This document shows positions 41,164 through 55,405 of a stretch of DNA of 64,000 nucleotides, piece after piece; the stretch's first letter is position 1, and every line of letters begins with the position of its first letter. A program made the position numbers and the translations under genes. The stretch covers positions 434,001 to 498,000 of the forward strand of contig NZ_CP048263.1 in assembly GCF_019469165.1 (NCBI RefSeq). The letters are read 5' to 3'. The notes below the pieces were generated by a model, which was given only the letters and a program-made list of their open reading frames with translations, was not told where the DNA came from and made no database searches. The stretch is from Gilliamella sp. ESL0443. GTDB taxonomy: Bacteria; Pseudomonadota; Gammaproteobacteria; Enterobacterales; Orbaceae.

Positions 41164-42546
41164 TTATTCCTCTTTCAATTTAGTTGGTCTTTTCCAACCT
41201 GCAAGTTGTTTCTGTTTTACCCGGCTAACCACAAGCTCATTGTCATTGACATCATTGGTTACCGTTGTTCCAGCTGCAATGGTTGCACCTTTGCCAATTT
41301 TGACTGGTGCAATTAGTTGAGTATCGGAACCCACAAATACATCATCTTCGATCACGGTTTTAAATTTGTTCGCACCATCATAGTTACAAGTAATTGTGCC
41401 AGCACCAATGTTGACGTTACAGCCAATTTCGCTATCACCTAAATAACTTAAATGTCCTGCTTTGGTGGCATGACCAAGATGAGCTTTTTTCAATTCGACA
41501 AAGTTACCAACATGGGCATGATCATCCAGTTGGCTACCAGGTCTTATTCGAGCAAAAGGTCCGATAGTACAGTGTTTGGCAATGATTGAATCTTCAATTA
41601 CTGAGAAAGGGCTAATTACGCTATCATCAGCGATGGTGCAGTTTTTTAAAATACAACCTGAACCGATAATGACATTGTTTCCCAATGTAACATCACCTTG
41701 AATAATTACATTTGTATCAATAGTGACATCCTTGCCATGAGTCAATTTACCACGTAAATCAAAACGCGCAGGGTCAAGCAACGTGACACCGGCAAGTAAA
41801 AGTTGCTCAGCTTGATGCTGTTGATAATGCCGTTCTAAAGTTGCAAGTTGCAAGCGATTATTGACGCCTTCAACTTCGAATTTTTTAACTGGGTGAGACG
41901 TTAAAATGTCGTAACCATCTTGGTGGGCAAAGGCGATAATATCGGTCAAATAATACTCTTTTTGCGCATTATTATTGGTTAAACGAGATAGCCACTTTTT
42001 AAGTAACTTGCCGGTAACCAGCATAATACCGGTATTAATTTCGTTAATTTTTTGTTGTTCAACATTGGCATCTTTTTGTTCAACGATCGCTACCACTTTA
42101 CCGTCTTTGCGTTCGATTCGCCCATAGCCAGTAGGATCATCTAAAATCACTGTCAATAAGGCAATGCCTTCTTGTGGTTTACTGGCAATTAGATTCTGTA
42201 AGGTTTCAATTGAGATAAGAGGTGTATCACCATATAAAATCAAGATATCTTCATCATCTTCAATAAAGGGAATAGCTTGTTGAACAGCATGTCCTGTACC
42301 CAACTGCTCTGCTTGATAAACAAGTTGCACAGGTTGATCTTGTAACGATTTTTCTAACTCGCTTTTGCCATGACCATAAACAATATTGATGCGATCAGTA
42401 TTAAGTTGTTGAACTGTATCAATAACATGTTGTAACATCGGCTTACCGCCGATTTTATGTAAAACTTTAGGTAGGTTGGAATACATCCGTGTGCCTTTTC
42501 CTGCCGCCAAAATAATTGCACTACGTTTTGGAGGTGAAATTGCCAT
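41164..42546 (-). CDS. glmU: Bifunctional UDP-GlcNAc pyrophosphorylase / glucosamine-1-P acetyltransferase
   Basis: Two-step synthesis of UDP-GlcNAc for peptidoglycan and lipopolysaccharide. The 460-residue protein has the uridyltransferase motif [27 protein letters not shown] near residue 12 and YGDTPLI, then a left-handed beta-helix of hexapeptide repeats (about residues 250-440) with the acetyltransferase [14 protein letters not shown] and [14 protein letters not shown]. Together with glmS it forms an amino-sugar operon in the enteric order. Confidence 0.98.
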
Positions 42547-47499: not shown

Positions 47500-48543
47500 A
47501 TGAACTGGTTTTCGCAGTATTCTCTCTTCTTGGCTGAAACAACAACGGTGGTTATTGCTATTTTAGCGGTATTAATTTTTATTTTAAGTCAACGCCGAAA
47601 ATCATCAACAATTGCTGGACGTTTATCTGTCAAAGATATTAGCGAAGAATATGAACAAGTCAAAGATGACATGTTAACGTCGAGCATGGATGAAATCGAA
47701 GCTAAACAGTTTACAAAAGATCTCAAAAAACAAAAAAAACTTGAAAAGAAACAAGCTAAACAAGCGGCTAAAAAGAAAGATGATAATGCTAAATCATCAG
47801 ATGCAAAGCCTAAATTATTTGTCTTATCGTTTAACGGCAGTATGGATGCACATGAAGTTGAAGAACTGCGTCAAGAAATTACCGCAGTCCTAGCTGTCAT
47901 CAAACCTGAAGATCAAGTGGTCGTAAAACTTGAAAGCCCTGGTGGAGTAGTGCATGGATATGGCCTTGCTGCCTCCCAACTATTACGCTTTAGAACGCGT
48001 AACATTCCATTTACTGCTGTAGTTGACAAAGTTGCAGCCAGTGGCGGTTATATGATGGCTTGTACTGCTAGCAAAATTGTCGCAGCGCCATTTGCAATTG
48101 TGGGTTCAATTGGTGTTGTTGCCCAAATTCCTAACTTCAACCGATTACTAAAAAAACATGATGTCGATATTGAATTACAAACAGCAGGAGAATACAAACG
48201 AACCCTAACCATGTTTGGTGAAAACACGGATGAAGGTCGCCAAAAATTCAAACAAGAACTTGAACAAACGCATCTATTATTTAAAGACTTTGTAAAAGAA
48301 TATCGACCAAATATCGATATAGATCAGGTTGCAACAGGCGAACACTGGTTTGCTACTCAAGCCAAAGAAATGGGACTGGTTGACGAAATTAGCACCAGTG
48401 ATGATTTTATCTTATCACACCTAGAAACGCATAAAATCATTGCTGTTAACTATCAACGCAAACAAAAACTGTCCGAAAAACTCTCCAAAAATGTCGTGAA
48501 AGGCATGGAAAAGTTATTTTTTAGACAAGGAAACGGACTGTAA
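47500..48543 (+). CDS. sohB: Inner-membrane peptidase SohB
   Basis: S49-family periplasmic-facing serine protease, 347 residues. One membrane helix (about residues 10-30) precedes a Lys-rich cytoplasmic/linker segment (residues 60-100). The ClpP-like fold has ESPGGVVHGYG, catalytic Ser in VAASGGYMMACTA near residue 180, and Lys in AGEYKRTLTMFG near residue 231. Role in envelope quality control is by analogy with E. coli. Ends in a hairpin terminator that includes a copy of the intergenic repeat. Confidence 0.94.
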   Translation: MNWFSQYSLFLAETTTVVIAILAVLIFILSQRRKSSTIAGRLSVKDISEEYEQVKDDMLTSSMDEIEAKQFTKDLKKQKKLEKKQAKQAAKKKDDNAKSSDAKPKLFVLSFNGSMDAHEVEELRQEITAVLAVIKPEDQVVVKLESPGGVVHGYGLAASQLLRFRTRNIPFTAVVDKVAASGGYMMACTASKIVAAPFAIVGSIGVVAQIPNFNRLLKKHDVDIELQTAGEYKRTLTMFGENTDEGRQKFKQELEQTHLLFKDFVKEYRPNIDIDQVATGEHWFATQAKEMGLVDEISTSDDFILSHLETHKIIAVNYQRKQKLSEKLSKNVVKGMEKLFFRQGNGL

Positions 48544-48816: not shown

Positions 48817-48845
48817 TTGCATCGTATTTTTTCAGTCACTATACT
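48817..48845 (+). promoter_or_regulatory. Conserved upstream promoter P1 of the first paralogue
   Basis: TTGCAT - 17 bases - TATACT, a good sigma-70 pattern. The same boxes and spacer recur upstream of the second paralogue (50935-50963), inside a conserved block of about 75 bp. Confidence 0.65.
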
Positions 48846-48915: not shown

Positions 48916-48945
48916 TTGACAGGATTATGTAATATGCACTATAAT
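48916..48945 (+). promoter_or_regulatory. Conserved consensus promoter P2 of the first paralogue
   Basis: Perfect TTGACA and TATAAT separated by 18 bases, repeated exactly before the second paralogue. The TATAAT also serves as codons 3-4 of a conserved short upstream ORF, so promoter and coding readings overlap. Confidence 0.65.
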
Positions 48946-48981
48946 TTTCAACAGGCAACAGGCAACATGGCCAACCTATAA
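48934..48981 (+). other. Conserved short upstream ORF (uORF) of the first paralogue
   Basis: ATG with CAGGA nine bases upstream opens a 15-codon ORF reading MHYNFQQATGNMANL, then TAA. The equivalent frame before the second paralogue begins MFYNFQQATGN. It overlaps, one base out of frame, the open frame that leads into the main gene. A +1 shift at CTA-T-AAG would join the two. Confidence 0.45.
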
Positions 48982-49132
48982 GTTAAATTCGTCAAAGTTA
49001 AGCTCTTATTTTTCATTTTTCACTAAAGTCTTTTTTTTCACCAAGATCTATAAAATTACGCAAAATTTTGCGCGATCCTCACATAGATCAATATCATCCC
49101 GACAGATCCTATTACCTTTAGTACCTAGTATA
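48941..49132 (+). other. Open in-frame N-terminal extension without a start codon (first paralogue)
   Basis: Sixty-four codons upstream of TTG 49133 contain no stop and no ATG, GTG or TTG. The translation (NRQQATW-TY-LNSSK ... FARSSHRS ... SRQILLPLVPSILLAFSF) aligns residue by residue with that before the second paralogue. It supplies the charged and hydrophobic parts of a signal peptide. It includes a T8 tract at 49031-49038. Confidence 0.6.
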
Positions 49133-50467
49133 TTGTTAGCGTTTTCATTTACTAGTACAGCGTTAACATCCACAACATCCAATTTTATTCACGGTGAAGT
49201 GCCTTATTTTACGTTCGACGGTGGTAATACACGAGTAACGGATACCGAAGGTTTGCTCGGGATCCATCTTTCTAATGGTCAACAATACTCGCCATCAAAT
49301 AATAATTCTAGTGCAACCAATCCTATCGAATTACCAACTATTGATGAAAGTTTTGCTGATATTAGCATGTTGGTGCCAGTTGATAGTAATACCGTTGATT
49401 TAAACACCATTGTCGCTGCACCTTATAATTATTGGGGCGATGATGATGGAGATAGTGAAGTCACTGCTACTGGCAGTATAAGCTTGTCTATTGTTGATAA
49501 AAACAATCAAACTGTATCACGAAATACCGTACCTATGTATTGTAAAGCGCCTTATAAAGCGACATTAACTAATACTGAAGGCACATTGACCACTCGTTAT
49601 GGCGTTCCTAATAGCATTAAGTTCGGAGCAGGTAGTGTTAACTATTATTTTAAACCTAAAGAATCACCTGCGATTTGTTTTGCTAAACCAAATAATCTAG
49701 CGTATACCGCACCTCCCTATGTAGGTCCCGAAACTATCTGGAATTATGGTAAAGGCTTTCTAACTCAAACCGCGACGCCATCATCTTATGGTTTAAATTT
49801 CCCGACTACTGGCGCTAATGGTTTGTACTTTGATTTAGATATTAGCAATAATGATCAGGCATTAACGTGGGATCCGGTTTCTCATAGTGGAATTACTGCG
49901 ACGATGACCAATTCAACAAATACTAGTGTCCGCGTTACATTAACGGGCCCTGCTGCAACCTTAGAACAATGGAATTCTAGTAATCCGGAAAAAGTAGCTA
50001 AACCATCTTTACCCCAGACATTCGAGTTAGTCGGTCGTGACAGTAATGGTAAGGCTGTCGTTAAATATGGATTTGAACTAAAGCAGTGGTTTGTCAATCG
50101 TGGAAACGTTATCGGAAATCACGACAACCAATTATCTTGGTGTACAAATATAGGTTATCACCTTCCTAATGTAAGGGATTTAACCAATGCGGTTTATCCA
50201 TCAAATGACCAATTGATTACCGCTACACCTCCATCACCGGGTAATCATTACCAACGTACCATTGGGGCAGGTCTTATTACCGAGTGGGGCTTTCTGTTAT
50301 ATTACGCGAATACTAACTTTAATTTGTATTATTGGACTAATGACTCGTACTCCCATGATGGTGGTTACACGTATTACTTTTACGCACACGCCGACCACGG
50401 ACTTATTCATTGGGTAGATCCTGCAACCTTCTACAACGGGGTTTGTGTTTCAGATCTCAACCCTTAA
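49133..50467 (+). CDS. Exported adhesin-like protein, paralogue A (start uncertain)
   Basis: 444 residues from TTG 49133, the first conventional start in frame, but that start has no ribosome-binding site and leaves only a stub of the signal peptide. The body has FTFDGGNTRVTDTEGLLGI, YNYWGDDDGDSEVTATGSISLSIVD, LTTRYGVPN, GLYFDLDI, QTFELVGRDSNG and FELKQWFVNRG. A C-terminal C-type-lectin-like segment has WCTNIGYHLPNVRDLTNAV, YYWTND and a final GVCVSD. The layout resembles the adhesion domain (DUF823-like) at the C-termini of Salmonella RatA/RatB/SinI-type surface proteins, here as a stand-alone secreted unit. Family assignment is tentative. A close paralogue follows. Confidence 0.7.
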   Translation: MLAFSFTSTALTSTTSNFIHGEVPYFTFDGGNTRVTDTEGLLGIHLSNGQQYSPSNNNSSATNPIELPTIDESFADISMLVPVDSNTVDLNTIVAAPYNYWGDDDGDSEVTATGSISLSIVDKNNQTVSRNTVPMYCKAPYKATLTNTEGTLTTRYGVPNSIKFGAGSVNYYFKPKESPAICFAKPNNLAYTAPPYVGPETIWNYGKGFLTQTATPSSYGLNFPTTGANGLYFDLDISNNDQALTWDPVSHSGITATMTNSTNTSVRVTLTGPAATLEQWNSSNPEKVAKPSLPQTFELVGRDSNGKAVVKYGFELKQWFVNRGNVIGNHDNQLSWCTNIGYHLPNVRDLTNAVYPSNDQLITATPPSPGNHYQRTIGAGLITEWGFLLYYANTNFNLYYWTNDSYSHDGGYTYYFYAHADHGLIHWVDPATFYNGVCVSDLNP

Positions 50468-50543
50468 TTCTTATTTTTTGAGGGAGAGATAGTAAAATAG
50501 CTTATATTTTTCTAGTAAGTTATGGTGTCGAAACTTAAACCAT

Positions 50544-50568
50544 CCGCCTCAATTGGGGCGGTTTTTTT
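50544..50568 (+). terminator. Intrinsic terminator of paralogue A
   Basis: A 7-bp stem (CCGCCTC / GGGGCGG, one T:G pair), loop AATT, then T7. Confidence 0.9.
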
Positions 50569-50582
50569 GAGTTTTTTATCGC

Positions 50583-50608
50583 AAAAAAAGTTGAGGAGCG
50601 GGGTTTTT
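50583..50608 (+). repeat. Intergenic repeat, copy 4
   Basis: A-run then GTTGAGGAGCGGGGTTTTT, 15 bp after the paralogue A terminator. Its left flank TTGAGTTTTTTATC is shared with copy 6, showing that the 3' flanks of the two paralogues were duplicated together. Confidence 0.88.
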
Positions 50609-50694
50609 GGGGTTCAAAATTCTGCTTTGCAATATTGCCTCAAATAAATAATTGCGCTCAAACTGTGGCACTTTTTAGAAATCCTTTTTTCATC

Positions 50695-50720
50695 AAAAAA
50701 AGTTGAGGAACGGGGTTTTT
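50695..50720 (+). repeat. Intergenic repeat, copy 5
   Basis: A-run then GTTGAGGAACGGGGTTTTT, about 110 bp after copy 4 in the spacer between the two paralogues. No partner arm for a hairpin is present. Confidence 0.85.
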
Positions 50721-50934
50721 GAGGTTTTAAATCTAATCTAAAAATTATTAAATGATCCAAATCACTAAATTTCTAATCCAGAGCCCAAAAATAAAATTTT
50801 TAAGGATCAATTGCTCTAATTTTAAAGATTTGTAATTACGATATATTTAATTAAAACAATGATTAATCGGTTGTAACTTAGATCCTTTTTAGATCATATT
50901 TACAAAAATTAACGTAAATGAGCGAAAAAAAGTG

Positions 50935-50963
50935 TTGCATCGTGTTTTTCCAATCACTATACT
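50935..50963 (+). promoter_or_regulatory. Conserved upstream promoter P1 of the second paralogue
   Basis: TTGCAT - 17 bases - TATACT, matching 48817-48845 in sequence and spacing, inside a conserved block. Confidence 0.65.
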
Positions 50964-51032
50964 TTTTACACGGTTTTAGCTACTAGGCTAAAATTTAGCA
51001 GAAATAAAATTGTAAATTAATCAAAAAATTAC

Positions 51033-51062
51033 TTGACAGGATTGTCGCATATGTTCTATAAT
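51033..51062 (+). promoter_or_regulatory. Conserved consensus promoter P2 of the second paralogue
   Basis: Perfect TTGACA - 18 bases - TATAAT as before the first paralogue, followed in both by a CAACAGG-CAACAGG-CAAC heptamer repeat. Confidence 0.65.
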
Positions 51063-51113
51063 TTTCAACAGGCAACAGGCAACTTGGTCAACCTATGTTT
51101 TAAATTCGTCTAA
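51051..51113 (+). other. Conserved short upstream ORF (uORF) of the second paralogue
   Basis: ATG with CAGGA nine bases upstream opens a 20-codon ORF starting MFYNFQQATGN and ending at TAA. It is out of frame by one base with the main open frame, as in the first paralogue, but its stop lies ten codons further on after base changes. Confidence 0.45.
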
Positions 51114-51300
51114 GTCCAGCACCCAGTTTAAATTTTTCACTGAAGCTTATTTTTCTACTCAATCAAGTGAAATTCTGCGAATTTTCGCGCGGTCGCTTCC
51201 GCGATCCTCTTCTCGATCCTTTTTCCGATCGTTTTCCGGATCCTCTTTCAGATCCTGTTTTCGATCTTTTTCCCAATTATCCCGTCAGATTGTTTTTTTC
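51058..51300 (+). other. Open in-frame N-terminal extension without a start codon (second paralogue)
   Basis: Eighty-one codons upstream of GTG 51301 contain no stop and no ATG, GTG or TTG. The frame reads NRQQATWSTYVLNSSK, then FFTEAYFSTQSSEILRIFARS, an Arg-Ser-rich repeat region, and SRQIVFFVAIFLSFSSHA, a convincing signal-peptide core. It aligns with the extension of the first paralogue except for the extra repeats. Confidence 0.6.
51191..51274 (+). repeat. Seven tandem 12-bp units with GATC at exact 12-bp spacing
   Basis: GATC occurs at 51203, 51215, 51227, 51239, 51251 and 51263, with GGTC at 51191. The rest of each unit is pyrimidine-rich. In the open frame each unit encodes four residues, mostly Arg-Ser-x-x. 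The equivalent place in the first paralogue keeps GATC at 49074 and 49086 only. A dam gene is in this genome, so all six are potential methylation sites. Confidence 0.85.
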
Positions 51301-52650
51301 GTGGCTATTTTCCTTTCTTTTTCCAGTCATGCATTGACATCACAGACAACTAGGAATGCGATACAGGGTAGTGTACCTTATCTGACTTTCGACGGTGGTC
51401 GTACTCGTGCAGTTGATGCTAACGGTCTGCTTGGGATTACACTATCTAACGGAACTAATTACACGCCTTCTACCAATTTATCATCTACAACCCCAATCGT
51501 CTTGCCGGTTGAGGGGCAGAGTTTTGCTGATATTCGTATGTTCGTTCCTACTGATACTAATTCAGTCGATTTAAGTACTCTTATCGGTCCTCCTAATAAT
51601 TATTGGGGGGATGATGATGGTGATTCAGACGTTACTGCTACAGGTTCTTTAAGTTTATCTATCGTCGATAAAAACGGTCAAACGGTATCACGTAATTCCG
51701 TGTTAACAATTTGTAACGCACCTTATAGGATTAAGTTATCCAGTACTAACGGTACATTATCAACTCGTTATGGCGTTCCTAATCGTAGTGATTTCAGTGC
51801 CCGTAGTGAGACTTATTACGTCAATCCAAAGGCTTCGCCTGTGGTTTGTTTCGTCAGACCTAATTTAATGTATGGTAAGCTTGGTGATGATCCTTATGAC
51901 CCATCTTGGGATTTTGCTGGCCCAGCTTCGATGTGGGACCCTGATAGGGGGTTTCTCACTCAAAAAACAGACCCTCTCTATTACGGTCAAAACTTTCCTA
52001 CTACAGGTCTTAATGGATTGTACTTTGATTTAGATATTAGTGGTAGTAGTCAGCCATTGTCTTGGTCTCCTGTTTCTCTGGGTGGTATCACAGTCACAAT
52101 GTCTAATTCTACTGCTACAAGCGTTCGCGTTACTTTAACTGGTCCTTATGCTACCATATCCCAGCATTGGTCAAACAATCCTGGTCCTATTTCTAAACCT
52201 ACTTTGCCTCAGACCTTCGAGTTGGTCGGTCGTGATACTAATGGTACTCCTGTTGTTAAATATGGTTTTACTTTGAAGCAGTGGTTCGTCAACCGAGGTA
52301 CTATATCTGACACTTATCCTAATACATTATCTTGGTGTAATCGTATTGGTTATCGAATGCCTAGCGTAAGGGATTTAACCAACGCGGTTCGTACAGAATC
52401 TCCTGCTATCTCTGGCGCCACCCCTTCCTCACGGGATAATCATTATATGCGTCATATAGGTTCTGGTTTTTTCGCTGAGTGGGGTCGTATGTTTGATTAT
52501 ACAACCATTGGCCTCACCAGCTATTGGCTCTGGACTAGTGACCGGAATGGTAGTACCCAGTTTATCGTGTACACATACAACGGTATCGTGGGTTGGGCCT
52601 ACAACGACAACGACTACGACTACAGCTACGGCTTTTGCTCCCATCCTTAG
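51301..52650 (+). CDS. Exported adhesin-like protein, paralogue B (start uncertain)
   Basis: 449 residues from GTG 51301, the first conventional start in frame, but the GTG follows a T7 tract without a ribosome-binding site and cuts the signal peptide. The body parallels paralogue A: LTFDGGRTRAVDANGLLGI, NNYWGDDDGDSDVTATGSLSLSIVD, TRYGVPN, GLYFDLDISG, PQTFELVGRDTNG, FTLKQWFVNRG, WCNRIGYRMPSVRDLTNAV, WLWTSD. It ends in a Tyr/Asn/Asp-rich YNDNDYDYSYGFCSHP. Several blocks are nearly identical at DNA level to paralogue A while others differ, which suggests duplication followed by divergence or gene conversion. Codon use is more pyrimidine-ending and somewhat less AT-rich than neighbouring genes. 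Confidence 0.7.
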   Translation: MAIFLSFSSHALTSQTTRNAIQGSVPYLTFDGGRTRAVDANGLLGITLSNGTNYTPSTNLSSTTPIVLPVEGQSFADIRMFVPTDTNSVDLSTLIGPPNNYWGDDDGDSDVTATGSLSLSIVDKNGQTVSRNSVLTICNAPYRIKLSSTNGTLSTRYGVPNRSDFSARSETYYVNPKASPVVCFVRPNLMYGKLGDDPYDPSWDFAGPASMWDPDRGFLTQKTDPLYYGQNFPTTGLNGLYFDLDISGSSQPLSWSPVSLGGITVTMSNSTATSVRVTLTGPYATISQHWSNNPGPISKPTLPQTFELVGRDTNGTPVVKYGFTLKQWFVNRGTISDTYPNTLSWCNRIGYRMPSVRDLTNAVRTESPAISGATPSSRDNHYMRHIGSGFFAEWGRMFDYTTIGLTSYWLWTSDRNGSTQFIVYTYNGIVGWAYNDNDYDYSYGFCSHP

Positions 52651-53002: not shown

Positions 53003-55405
53003 ATGATAAAAGATCCATTTTATGATCGTGAGGCGAAAAAGTATGAATCGCCGATCGCCAGTCGTGAACTGATTTTGGATTATCTTACCAAAGAAGCAAA
53101 ACCAGCAAGTTTAGAAAAAATAGCTAAAGCCGTATCAATCAAATCTGACGAGCAAAAAGAGGCTTTACATCGCCGATTGCGAGCGATGGAACGTGATGGT
53201 CAGGTGGTTTACACGCGTCGTAAATGTTATGCCTTACCTGAAAAATTCGATATGGTTAAGGGCAGTGTTATTGCACATCGTGATGGTTATGGCTTTTTAC
53301 GGGTTGAAGGTAAGCCGGAAGACTATTTTTTGTCACACGAGCAGATGAAAAAGGTTTTACAAGGCGATGTTATTTTGGCTCAGCCAATCGGTAGTCAATA
53401 CCGTGGTAAGACTGAAGCGCGAGTGGTGCGGATTTTAGAGCCACGTACTAATCTGATTGTTGGTCGTTATTTTATTGAGCAAGGTGTTGGTTTTGTGGTG
53501 CCGGATGATAGCCGTTTGAATTTTGATATTTTAATCGCTGGCAAGCCAAATCGTACGGTTAGAATGGGCTCAGTTGTTGTGGTTGAATTGCAGCAAAGAC
53601 CTGAACGACGCCAAAAAGCGGTCGGAGTGATTAAGGAAGTGCTTGGCGAAATAATGGGCACGAATTTAGCCATCGATATTTCATTACGTAATCATGAGAT
53701 CCCTTATGAATTTCCAAAAGCGGTTGAAAACGCGGCTAACAAGTTTAGTGAGCAAGTGCCTGAAAGCGCTAAAAAAGGCCGTAAGGATCTACGTGATTTG
53801 CCGTTAGTAACCATTGATGGTGAAGATGCACGAGATTTTGATGATGCGGTCTATTGTCAAAAGAATCGTGGTGGTGGTTATCGTTTGTGGGTGGCGATTG
53901 CTGATGTGAGCTATTATGTGCGAACCGGTAAGGCGCTTGATAAAGAAGCTTGTTTGCGTGGGACTTCAGTCTATTTTCCGTCGCGCGTGGTTCCGATGTT
54001 GCCGGAAGTTTTATCCAATGGCCTTTGTTCGCTCAATCCACAAGTTGATCGCTTGTGTTTAGTGTGCGAAATGACCGTGTCGAATAAGGGGCGTTTGACC
54101 GGTTATCAATTTTATGAAGCGGTGATGAATTCACACGCGCGTTTAACTTATACCAAGGTAGCTAAGATTTTGGAAGGTGATAAGGATTTGCGTGAGCATT
54201 ATCGTGAGTTGGTTCCTCACCTTGAGAATCTTTATGGTCTTTATAAGGTGCTTAATAGTGCTCGAATTGCCCGTGGCGCAATCGGGTTTGAGTCGGAAGA
54301 GCCTAAATTCATCTTCAATGCTGATAAACGTATTGAGAGCATTGAGTTAGTTCAGCGAAATGAAGCGCATAAGATCATTGAGGAGTGTATGATTTTGGCC
54401 AATGTTGCCGCAGCAAAATTGGTGATTGATGCTGAGATTCCGTCGCTATTTCGTGTGCATGATAAACCGGATGAAGATCGCATAAATAATTTACGCAGTA
54501 TTTTAAGTGAACTTGGTTTGTCTCTCGGCAAGGGTACCAGTCCAAAAGATATCGCTAAGTTGATGGTTGAGGTTGAAGCAAGACCTGATCATGAGATGTT
54601 GCAAACGGTCATTTTGCGCTCAATGAAGCAAGCAATTTACGATCCTGAAAATCGTGGGCACTTTGGGTTAGCACTTGAGGAGTATGCGCACTTTACTTCG
54701 CCAATTCGTCGTTATCCTGATCTGTTATTGCATCGTGCGATTAAATGGGTTATTGCTGATCAGCAACATAGTAAACAACATGATAAAACCGGTGGACACC
54801 GTTATACGACTAGCGAGATGCTCTATTTTGGTGAACACTGTTCAATGACTGAGCGCCGAGCGGACGAAGCGGTTCGTGATGTCGTTGATTGGTTGAAATG
54901 TGATTATATGCAAGATCATGTCGGCGAGGTATTCAATGGCACTATTTCGAGTGTTGTTAATTTCGGCTTTTTTGTGCGATTAGATGATCTATTTATTGAT
55001 GGTTTAGTGCACGTTTCATCACTCGAAAATGATTATTATATTTTTGATGCATCACGTAATCGTTTAATTGGTGAAAATACCCGTTTTATTTATCGTTTAG
55101 GTGACAAAGTTCAAGTAACAGTCGTTAATGTTAATCCTGACGAGCGTAAAATTGATTTTTCATTGGTTGGCAGTAATAATAAGCCACAACGCCAAGGTAA
55201 GACAGCCAAAGATAAGGCGAAGAAAGTCGATAGTGATGCTGAACAGCCAGTTAAGCGCAAAAATAAAAGCCAAGCTAATAGTAAAAAAACGAGCGCAAAG
55301 GTTGTCGCAAAGAGTAAAAAACGCAGTAAGCCAAAAACAGCTGCTAAAAAAACGTCTAAATCAGCATCGACCTCAAGCAATCAGAGAAAAAAGAGTAAAA
55401 AATAG
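53003..55405 (+). CDS. rnr: Ribonuclease R
   Basis: An 800-residue processive 3'-5' exoribonuclease that degrades structured RNA. An N-terminal helix-turn-helix region ([31 protein letters not shown]) and two cold-shock domains are followed by the RNB catalytic domain, with [14 protein letters not shown] near residues 273-286 holding the metal-binding aspartates. Then come [16 protein letters not shown], an S1 domain ([18 protein letters not shown]) and a very Lys/Ser-rich tail of about 80 residues, as usual for RNase R. It abuts rlmB. Confidence 0.97.

Follow-up and report, generated by a model that had tools for sequence, protein, structure and literature searches.

Two paralogous open reading frames (ORFs) lie in the window, the 64,000-nucleotide stretch of the Gilliamella sp. 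ESL0443 genome analysed here (contig NZ_CP048263.1, positions 434,001 to 498,000), one at 49133-50467 with a nominal TTG start at 49133 (copy 1) and the other at 51301-52650 with a nominal GTG start at 51301 (copy 2), and both appear to encode exported proteins. The initial annotation had pointed out that the main frame of each stays open upstream without any ATG, GTG or TTG, which holds for 71 and 88 codons (the 64 and 81 codons given there count from 48941 and 51058). The upstream translations of the two copies align as had been described, and they supply a signal-peptide-like leader, with basic residues and a hydrophobic core (ILLPLVPSILLA, IVFFVAIFLSFS), that is lacking or cut at the nominal starts. 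What had been overlooked is a conserved ATG in another frame, preceded by AGGA in both copies, together with an array of the heptamer CAACAGG that starts 15 nt after this ATG, stands between it and the main frame and puts it out of that frame (Table 1). None of 100 shuffles of the window gave two matches to the array pattern, and elsewhere in the 64 kb the sole heptamer array that reaches 17 nt (AAGTTGC x 2.4, 41838-41854) is not at a member of the protein family to which the two genes belong.

Arrays of this kind are widespread in that family. We examined 284 distinct members. They were drawn from 381 loci, which represent the highest-scoring part of the family, after removal of hits whose upstream sequence was too short, and they span 36 genome labels, among which a named genome may duplicate an unnamed one. 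With an array defined as an exact repeat that spans 16 nt or more and 2.25 units or more, a definition that misses imperfect repeats, and with units of A and T only left out, 151 of the 284 members carry one where the main frame begins, namely 137 heptamers, seven octamers, six tetramers and one pentamer. An ATG lies close upstream (no more than 30 nt) of 108 of 111 arrays in a scan that did not require an ATG, and a G at position -11 is kept in 94% of 126 array-bearing members (figures on 126, 55, 111 and 75 members, here and below, precede the removal of six doubly counted genes and the addition of the array of locus L007). Among the 152 arrays that lie up to 34 nt after an ATG, the period is 7 in 139, 4 in six, 8 in six and 5 in one; periods of 3, 6, 9 or 12 are absent from these 152, and six such arrays occur elsewhere in the same stretches.

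The frame of the ATG follows the number of units. Before the heptamer arrays it is in frame with the main ORF in 10 of 137 members and out of frame in 127 (116 at one offset, 11 at the other), and translation from an out-of-frame ATG stops after 14-36 codons. Three whole units are present in 115 of these arrays, two in ten, four in eight, twelve in two, and seven and fourteen in one each; three units give the same wrong offset in 112 of 115 cases, two units the other offset in eight of ten, and four units an in-frame ATG in seven of eight. A tandem unit whose length is not a multiple of three thus lies in the 5' coding region, its number sets the frame of the ATG and both states occur in nature, as in phase-variable loci of the simple-sequence-repeat (SSR) type. 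The paralogues share ancestry, and the 137 arrays amount to 39 genome-by-unit classes; the commonest state is three units at one and the same offset in 27 of these classes. In-frame heptamer genes number one of 19 in the window genome, one of 36 in G024, none of 28 in G030, one of 15 in G032, one of seven in G006, none of six in G005 and one of five in G010. Relatives led by an intact ATG, for which the initial annotation had proposed to look, are plentiful: an in-frame ATG is present in 115 of the 133 members in which no array was detected, and outside the genus all ten loci from two other genera of the taxonomic family have an in-frame ATG and no array (by eye).

The arrays look like the signature of SSR phase variation, distributed in the window genome over 19 paralogues with varied units that are mostly off, and we consider it probable (about 0.85) that the two window genes are phase-variable and belong to a large Gilliamella family of exported proteins. 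Transcription, presumably from a promoter-like site (P1), would yield a messenger RNA (mRNA) carrying a ribosome-binding site and the ATG. The codons after the ATG would then run through the array. As the 7-bp unit is not divisible by three, the frame of the leader and mature protein would be kept or lost according to how many whole units are present, two or three units leading to the early stop. The in-frame classes would comprise four units and the array-less copies, which have about one unit (by eye), and the window copies, with 2.7 and 2.6 units, would both be in the off state. Slipped-strand mispairing or recombination between paralogues would gain or lose units and so may switch each gene. 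The initial annotation had concluded that initiation must be unconventional, a need that the ordinary ATG and AGGA of both copies, offset by the heptamer array, removes; its option of a dead start in both copies came closest, with the difference that the silence would be an off state set by frame-shifting tandem repeats, which are present at 151 of the 284 members examined.

Several observations weigh against switching of this kind. By the rule of our script 18 of the 133 array-less members have no in-frame ATG, though 14 of the 18 have a GTG, a TTG or a nearer ATG in frame, and five of 133 arrays of two to four units sit in another frame than the unit count predicts, exceptions that would arise through other small changes or through the repeat ends. 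A Shine-Dalgarno-like motif is found in 87 of 132 heptamer members. The comparisons of unit number cover paralogues within genomes and different species, and most arrays (115 of 137) have the three whole units at which slippage should be slow. The in-frame share, 10 of 137 among paralogues that are not independent, is far from the one third expected under free switching. The comparison of non-synonymous with synonymous substitution rates (dN/dS) that the initial annotation had proposed for the upstream extension, made on out-of-frame members over 200 random pairings, gave the lowest value in the main frame, 0.53 (range 0.47-0.62), but the contrast with the two wrong frames is modest, at 0.73 (0.65-0.84) and 0.64 (0.58-0.73), and one of these ranges overlaps that of the main frame. 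The bias towards the off state would mean either that slippage is rare at three units and the off state favoured, or that gene copying spreads the three-unit form; together with a second promoter-like site (P2, below) it is the main feature that phase variation leaves over.

The arrays nevertheless bear marks of turnover. Across the family 24 different heptamer units occur in the 39 genome-by-unit classes, each uniform within its array (which holds by construction in an exact-repeat search), so that units appear to have been copied repeatedly and arrays to turn over. Two pairs of paralogues, each pair from one genome and with flanks that are nearly identical, differ by a single unit, with 3.4 vs 4.4 units in L164 (off) and L094 (in frame) and 3.4 vs 2.4 in L066 and L224. 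The double CAACAGG unit, CAACAGGCAACAGG, is found 17 times across the 2.4-Mb genome (its reversed control not once), and all 17 sites lie 174-247 nt 5' of a family match. Some members carry long arrays of a kind known to slip: tetramers, (GCCA)19-26 at five genes of G006 and 13 units in G014, as well as (GACAACA)12.6-14.6 at three genes, (CACAA)13.4 and an octamer, (AGCAAACA)12. The (GCCA)13-26 arrays are presumably a longer and faster-changing repeat type. The members that carry them (L143, L150, L159 and L381 of G006, L296 of G014) are distant relatives, and frame states differ between loci of one genome.

Alternatively, the out-of-frame copies could be silent donors or decaying genes and the arrays duplication scars, with only the array-less in-frame paralogues expressed and recombination taking place between them. 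The scarcity of in-frame array members would agree with this, as would the likeness of the paralogues in their upstream and leader regions (median nucleotide identity 0.74-0.89 and 0.67-0.87), in contrast to a divergent C-terminal part, whose median amino-acid identity among heptamer paralogues from four genomes is 0.50-0.55 vs 0.61-0.78 for the N-terminal part. We regard it as unlikely, however, since the off copies keep the main frame open. All of 101 out-of-frame heptamer members, which come from five genomes, are free of main-frame stops along the leader-coding stretch and have at least one stop in each of the other two frames, a pattern beyond chance that agrees with the coding extension proposed by the initial annotation. 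The unit types are also many, never divisible by three beside the ATG, and some arrays are long. The out-of-frame genes are not visibly decaying, judging by the open leaders and, more weakly, by dN/dS, which in the mature part is 0.24. The leaders of array-less in-frame members, measured up to the approximate start of the mature part in 75 members from 11 genomes, have a median length of 61 residues and range from 21 to 102.

Two promoter-like sites precede the main frame. A P1-like TATACT or TATAAT at similar distance is present in the consensus of the array-bearing genes of seven genomes and in many array-less genes too (by eye), and a score of at least 10/12 against the P1 consensus of the window copies is reached by 74 of the 126 members with an array and by 22 of the 55 without. 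A TTTACAAAAGTTAAC-like stretch is conserved 5' of P1 in the consensus lines of several genomes and is possibly a regulator site. P2, which is sigma-70-like, scores at least 10/12 in 129 of the 137 heptamer genes, and in every one of these the array follows after 2-5 nt. Measured at the ATG, this level is reached by 127 of 132 heptamer genes vs 19 of 62 array-less genes of like N-terminus, three of 53 other array-less genes and 1.1% of shuffles, and the mean P2 score of array genes exceeds that of array-less genes in 14 of the 14 genomes that have both. The spacing between P2 and array is kept in L058 and L258, though there the ATG stands 4-6 nt from the array instead of about 15, and five of seven octamer genes and five of six tetramer genes (the latter at 14 nt distance) also reach the score. 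Shared ancestry of the 5' regions offers a partial explanation of this link. As the main promoter of the translated mRNA P2 was rejected, because its transcript would lack the ATG, and the P1-like site is common to many array-less genes.

The near-perfect P2, with its predicted transcript start inside the array, could still favour initiation at an upstream non-AUG codon in the main frame, for example on transcripts that start inside the array, and the commonest state of three units (115 of 137) would give a constant distance from P2 to the main frame. This is very improbable: the ATG placed just upstream of nearly all arrays would be pointless, array-less relatives read that ATG in frame, no common in-frame near-start codon was seen by eye, and the two-unit window copies would fall in a different frame from three-unit copies. 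Nor are the nominal TTG and GTG codons likely starts, as the initial annotation had already argued; their positions are not conserved among members, on which ground they were rejected, and 13 of 137 heptamer members have no ATG, GTG or TTG at all from the array to 20 codons past the anchor. A programmed ribosomal frameshift or hop joining the ATG frame to the main frame for constitutive expression, another of the initial proposals, could use the conserved ATG, the repeats as landing sites and the one dominant offset (116 of 137), but we give it hardly any credence, as there is no fixed offset between start and main frame (116, 11 and 10 members fall in the three classes, and G000 alone has 15 at one wrong offset vs three at the other), the units are of 24 types and out-of-frame reading soon stops; slippery sites were not searched for.

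Under phase variation P2 may have a different part to play. We tentatively suggest, with little confidence, that the predicted P2 is coupled to the arrays, in that a polymerase opening the DNA, or the nascent RNA, may promote unit change or gene conversion between paralogues, so that even very short arrays switch. The suggestion is by analogy with the pilE system of Neisseria gonorrhoeae, in which transcription starting in the G-quadruplex (G4) region promotes pilin variation. In that system the promoter of the G4-associated small RNA is placed, like P2, so as to start transcription inside the variation-driving sequence (PMC3547852). There the sequence is a G-quadruplex, variation proceeds by gene conversion and the need for the promoter was demonstrated by inactivation (PMC3547852), whereas in Gilliamella the sequence consists of repeats and the activity of P2 is a prediction.

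The product itself is probably exported and may act as a surface adhesin. The window copies have no Pfam or NCBIfam match, and at gathering score they match none of the families of intimin/invasin C-type-lectin adhesins. Among 64 members, weak Pfam matches include Intimin_C in two (best E 7.4e-4) and InvE_AD in one (E 0.015), and nine other Pfam families matched the 64 as weakly. The C-terminal region of the family profile also matches a protein from another family of the order, in which it is located after an Invasin_D4 match at cut-off score. The weak Intimin_C and InvE_AD matches and this Invasin_D4 neighbour suggest a lectin-like binding end. Among proteins of known structure no convincing relative was found, the one match having an E of 0.38.

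The window protein has 32 matches in its own genome, a single contig of 2.40 Mb, and matches in 35 of 60 searched genomes (its own included) spread over two of 26 genera; all 75 named loci retrieved with it are from Gilliamella, a genus of bee-gut bacteria. Of 148 genomes of the order, ten were matched by the family profile, eight of the same taxonomic family (the source genome included) and two of other families, which gave short matches only, all from profile position 298 on in the C-terminal part. Within the genus the distribution is patchy, with no match in G008 and a single weak match each in G002, G012, G013 and G029. Members in G009, G010 and G033 are shorter, matching only about profile positions 180-442 in open frames of about 280-430 codons, and a 1556-codon open frame at G011:C1:1005507-1008677 has several family-like stretches and an octamer array (L261) in front. 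In the window the two ORFs are flanked by an S49-peptidase gene (47500-48543) and an RNase-R-like gene (53003-55405), and the copy 2 leader contains at 51197-51273 an imperfect 12-bp repeat (CGATCC..., rich in Arg and Ser) with six GATC sites, of which copy 1 has a short counterpart.

Table 1. Features of the two paralogous genes, in positions of the window.
Feature	Position	Strand	Description
P1 promoter-like site, copy 1	48817..48845	+	TTGCAT-N17-TATACT, about 90 nt 5' of the ATG; consensus scan
P2 promoter-like site, copy 1	48916..48945	+	TTGACA-N18-TATAAT, 12/12; overlaps the ATG, ends 3 nt before the array
Shine-Dalgarno-like AGGA, copy 1	48921..48924	+	read from the sequence
Conserved ATG, copy 1	48934..48936	+	out of frame here: 15 codons, stop at 48979
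Heptamer array CAACAGG x 2.7, copy 1	48949..48967	+	exact-repeat search, shuffle control
Leader-coding extension, copy 1, main frame	48968..49162	+	basic stretch and hydrophobic core
Putative mature exported protein, copy 1	49163..50467	+	predicted cleavage site
P1 promoter-like site, copy 2	50935..50963	+	TTGCAT-N17-TATACT
P2 promoter-like site, copy 2	51033..51062	+	TTGACA-N18-TATAAT, 12/12; overlaps the out-of-frame ATG, ends 3 nt before the array
Shine-Dalgarno-like AGGA, copy 2	51038..51041	+	read from the sequence
Conserved ATG, copy 2	51051..51053	+	out of frame here: 20 codons, stop at 51111
Heptamer array CAACAGG x 2.6, copy 2	51066..51083	+	exact-repeat search, shuffle control
Leader-coding extension, copy 2, main frame	51085..51330	+	holds an imperfect 12-bp repeat with GATC sites at 51202-51266
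Putative mature exported protein, copy 2	51331..52650	+	predicted cleavage site

Repeat-based phase variation is known mainly from pathogens. Our data suggest that a bee-gut symbiont would possess numerous switches within a single protein family, with heptamer arrays at 36, 28, 19 and 15 examined genes in four genomes. Literature searches, a weak test of absence, showed by title no publication on phase variation in Gilliamella among the papers listed, and two Gilliamella genome papers contain none of the terms that were looked for. Gene finders are likely to mis-annotate such genes with false TTG or GTG starts. The switches would give a testable reason for possible surface variation of Gilliamella strains within a host, and the origin of frame-setting repeats could be studied in the naturally occurring range of units and lengths that the family offers. 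If P2 does drive switching, promoter architecture would be tied to mutation rate.

Compared with known systems, the Gilliamella genes would represent a known kind of switch in a new setting, with an unusual arrangement of promoter and array. In Haemophilus influenzae, the repeats of hmw1A and hmw2A lie in the promoter and tune transcription, whereas those of Gilliamella lie within the reading frame. What the two have in common is 7-bp repeats, in Haemophilus at an adhesin gene (PMC8262952). The Opa proteins of N. gonorrhoeae, with about 11 genes, are likewise a multi-locus surface-protein family in which each leader-coding region has its own frame-setting repeat, CTCTT (PMC3745409); that repeat is a pentamer, whereas Gilliamella has mainly heptamers, plus units of 4, 5 and 8 bp, and the likeness is one of arrangement. 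In neuO of Escherichia coli K1 the reading frame depends, as it would here, on 7-bp tandem repeats within the 5' part of the coding sequence; the heptamer AAGACTC is present in 3-53 units, and 42 of 64 genomes are off (PMC13001214). One Gilliamella unit, AAGACAC, is a single base away from AAGACTC. However, neuO is a single phage-borne enzyme gene (PMC13001214), whereas the Gilliamella product is probably an exported protein, encoded in one genome at 19 paralogous loci, mostly with three units, and would be switched across the family by arrays of 24 unit types.

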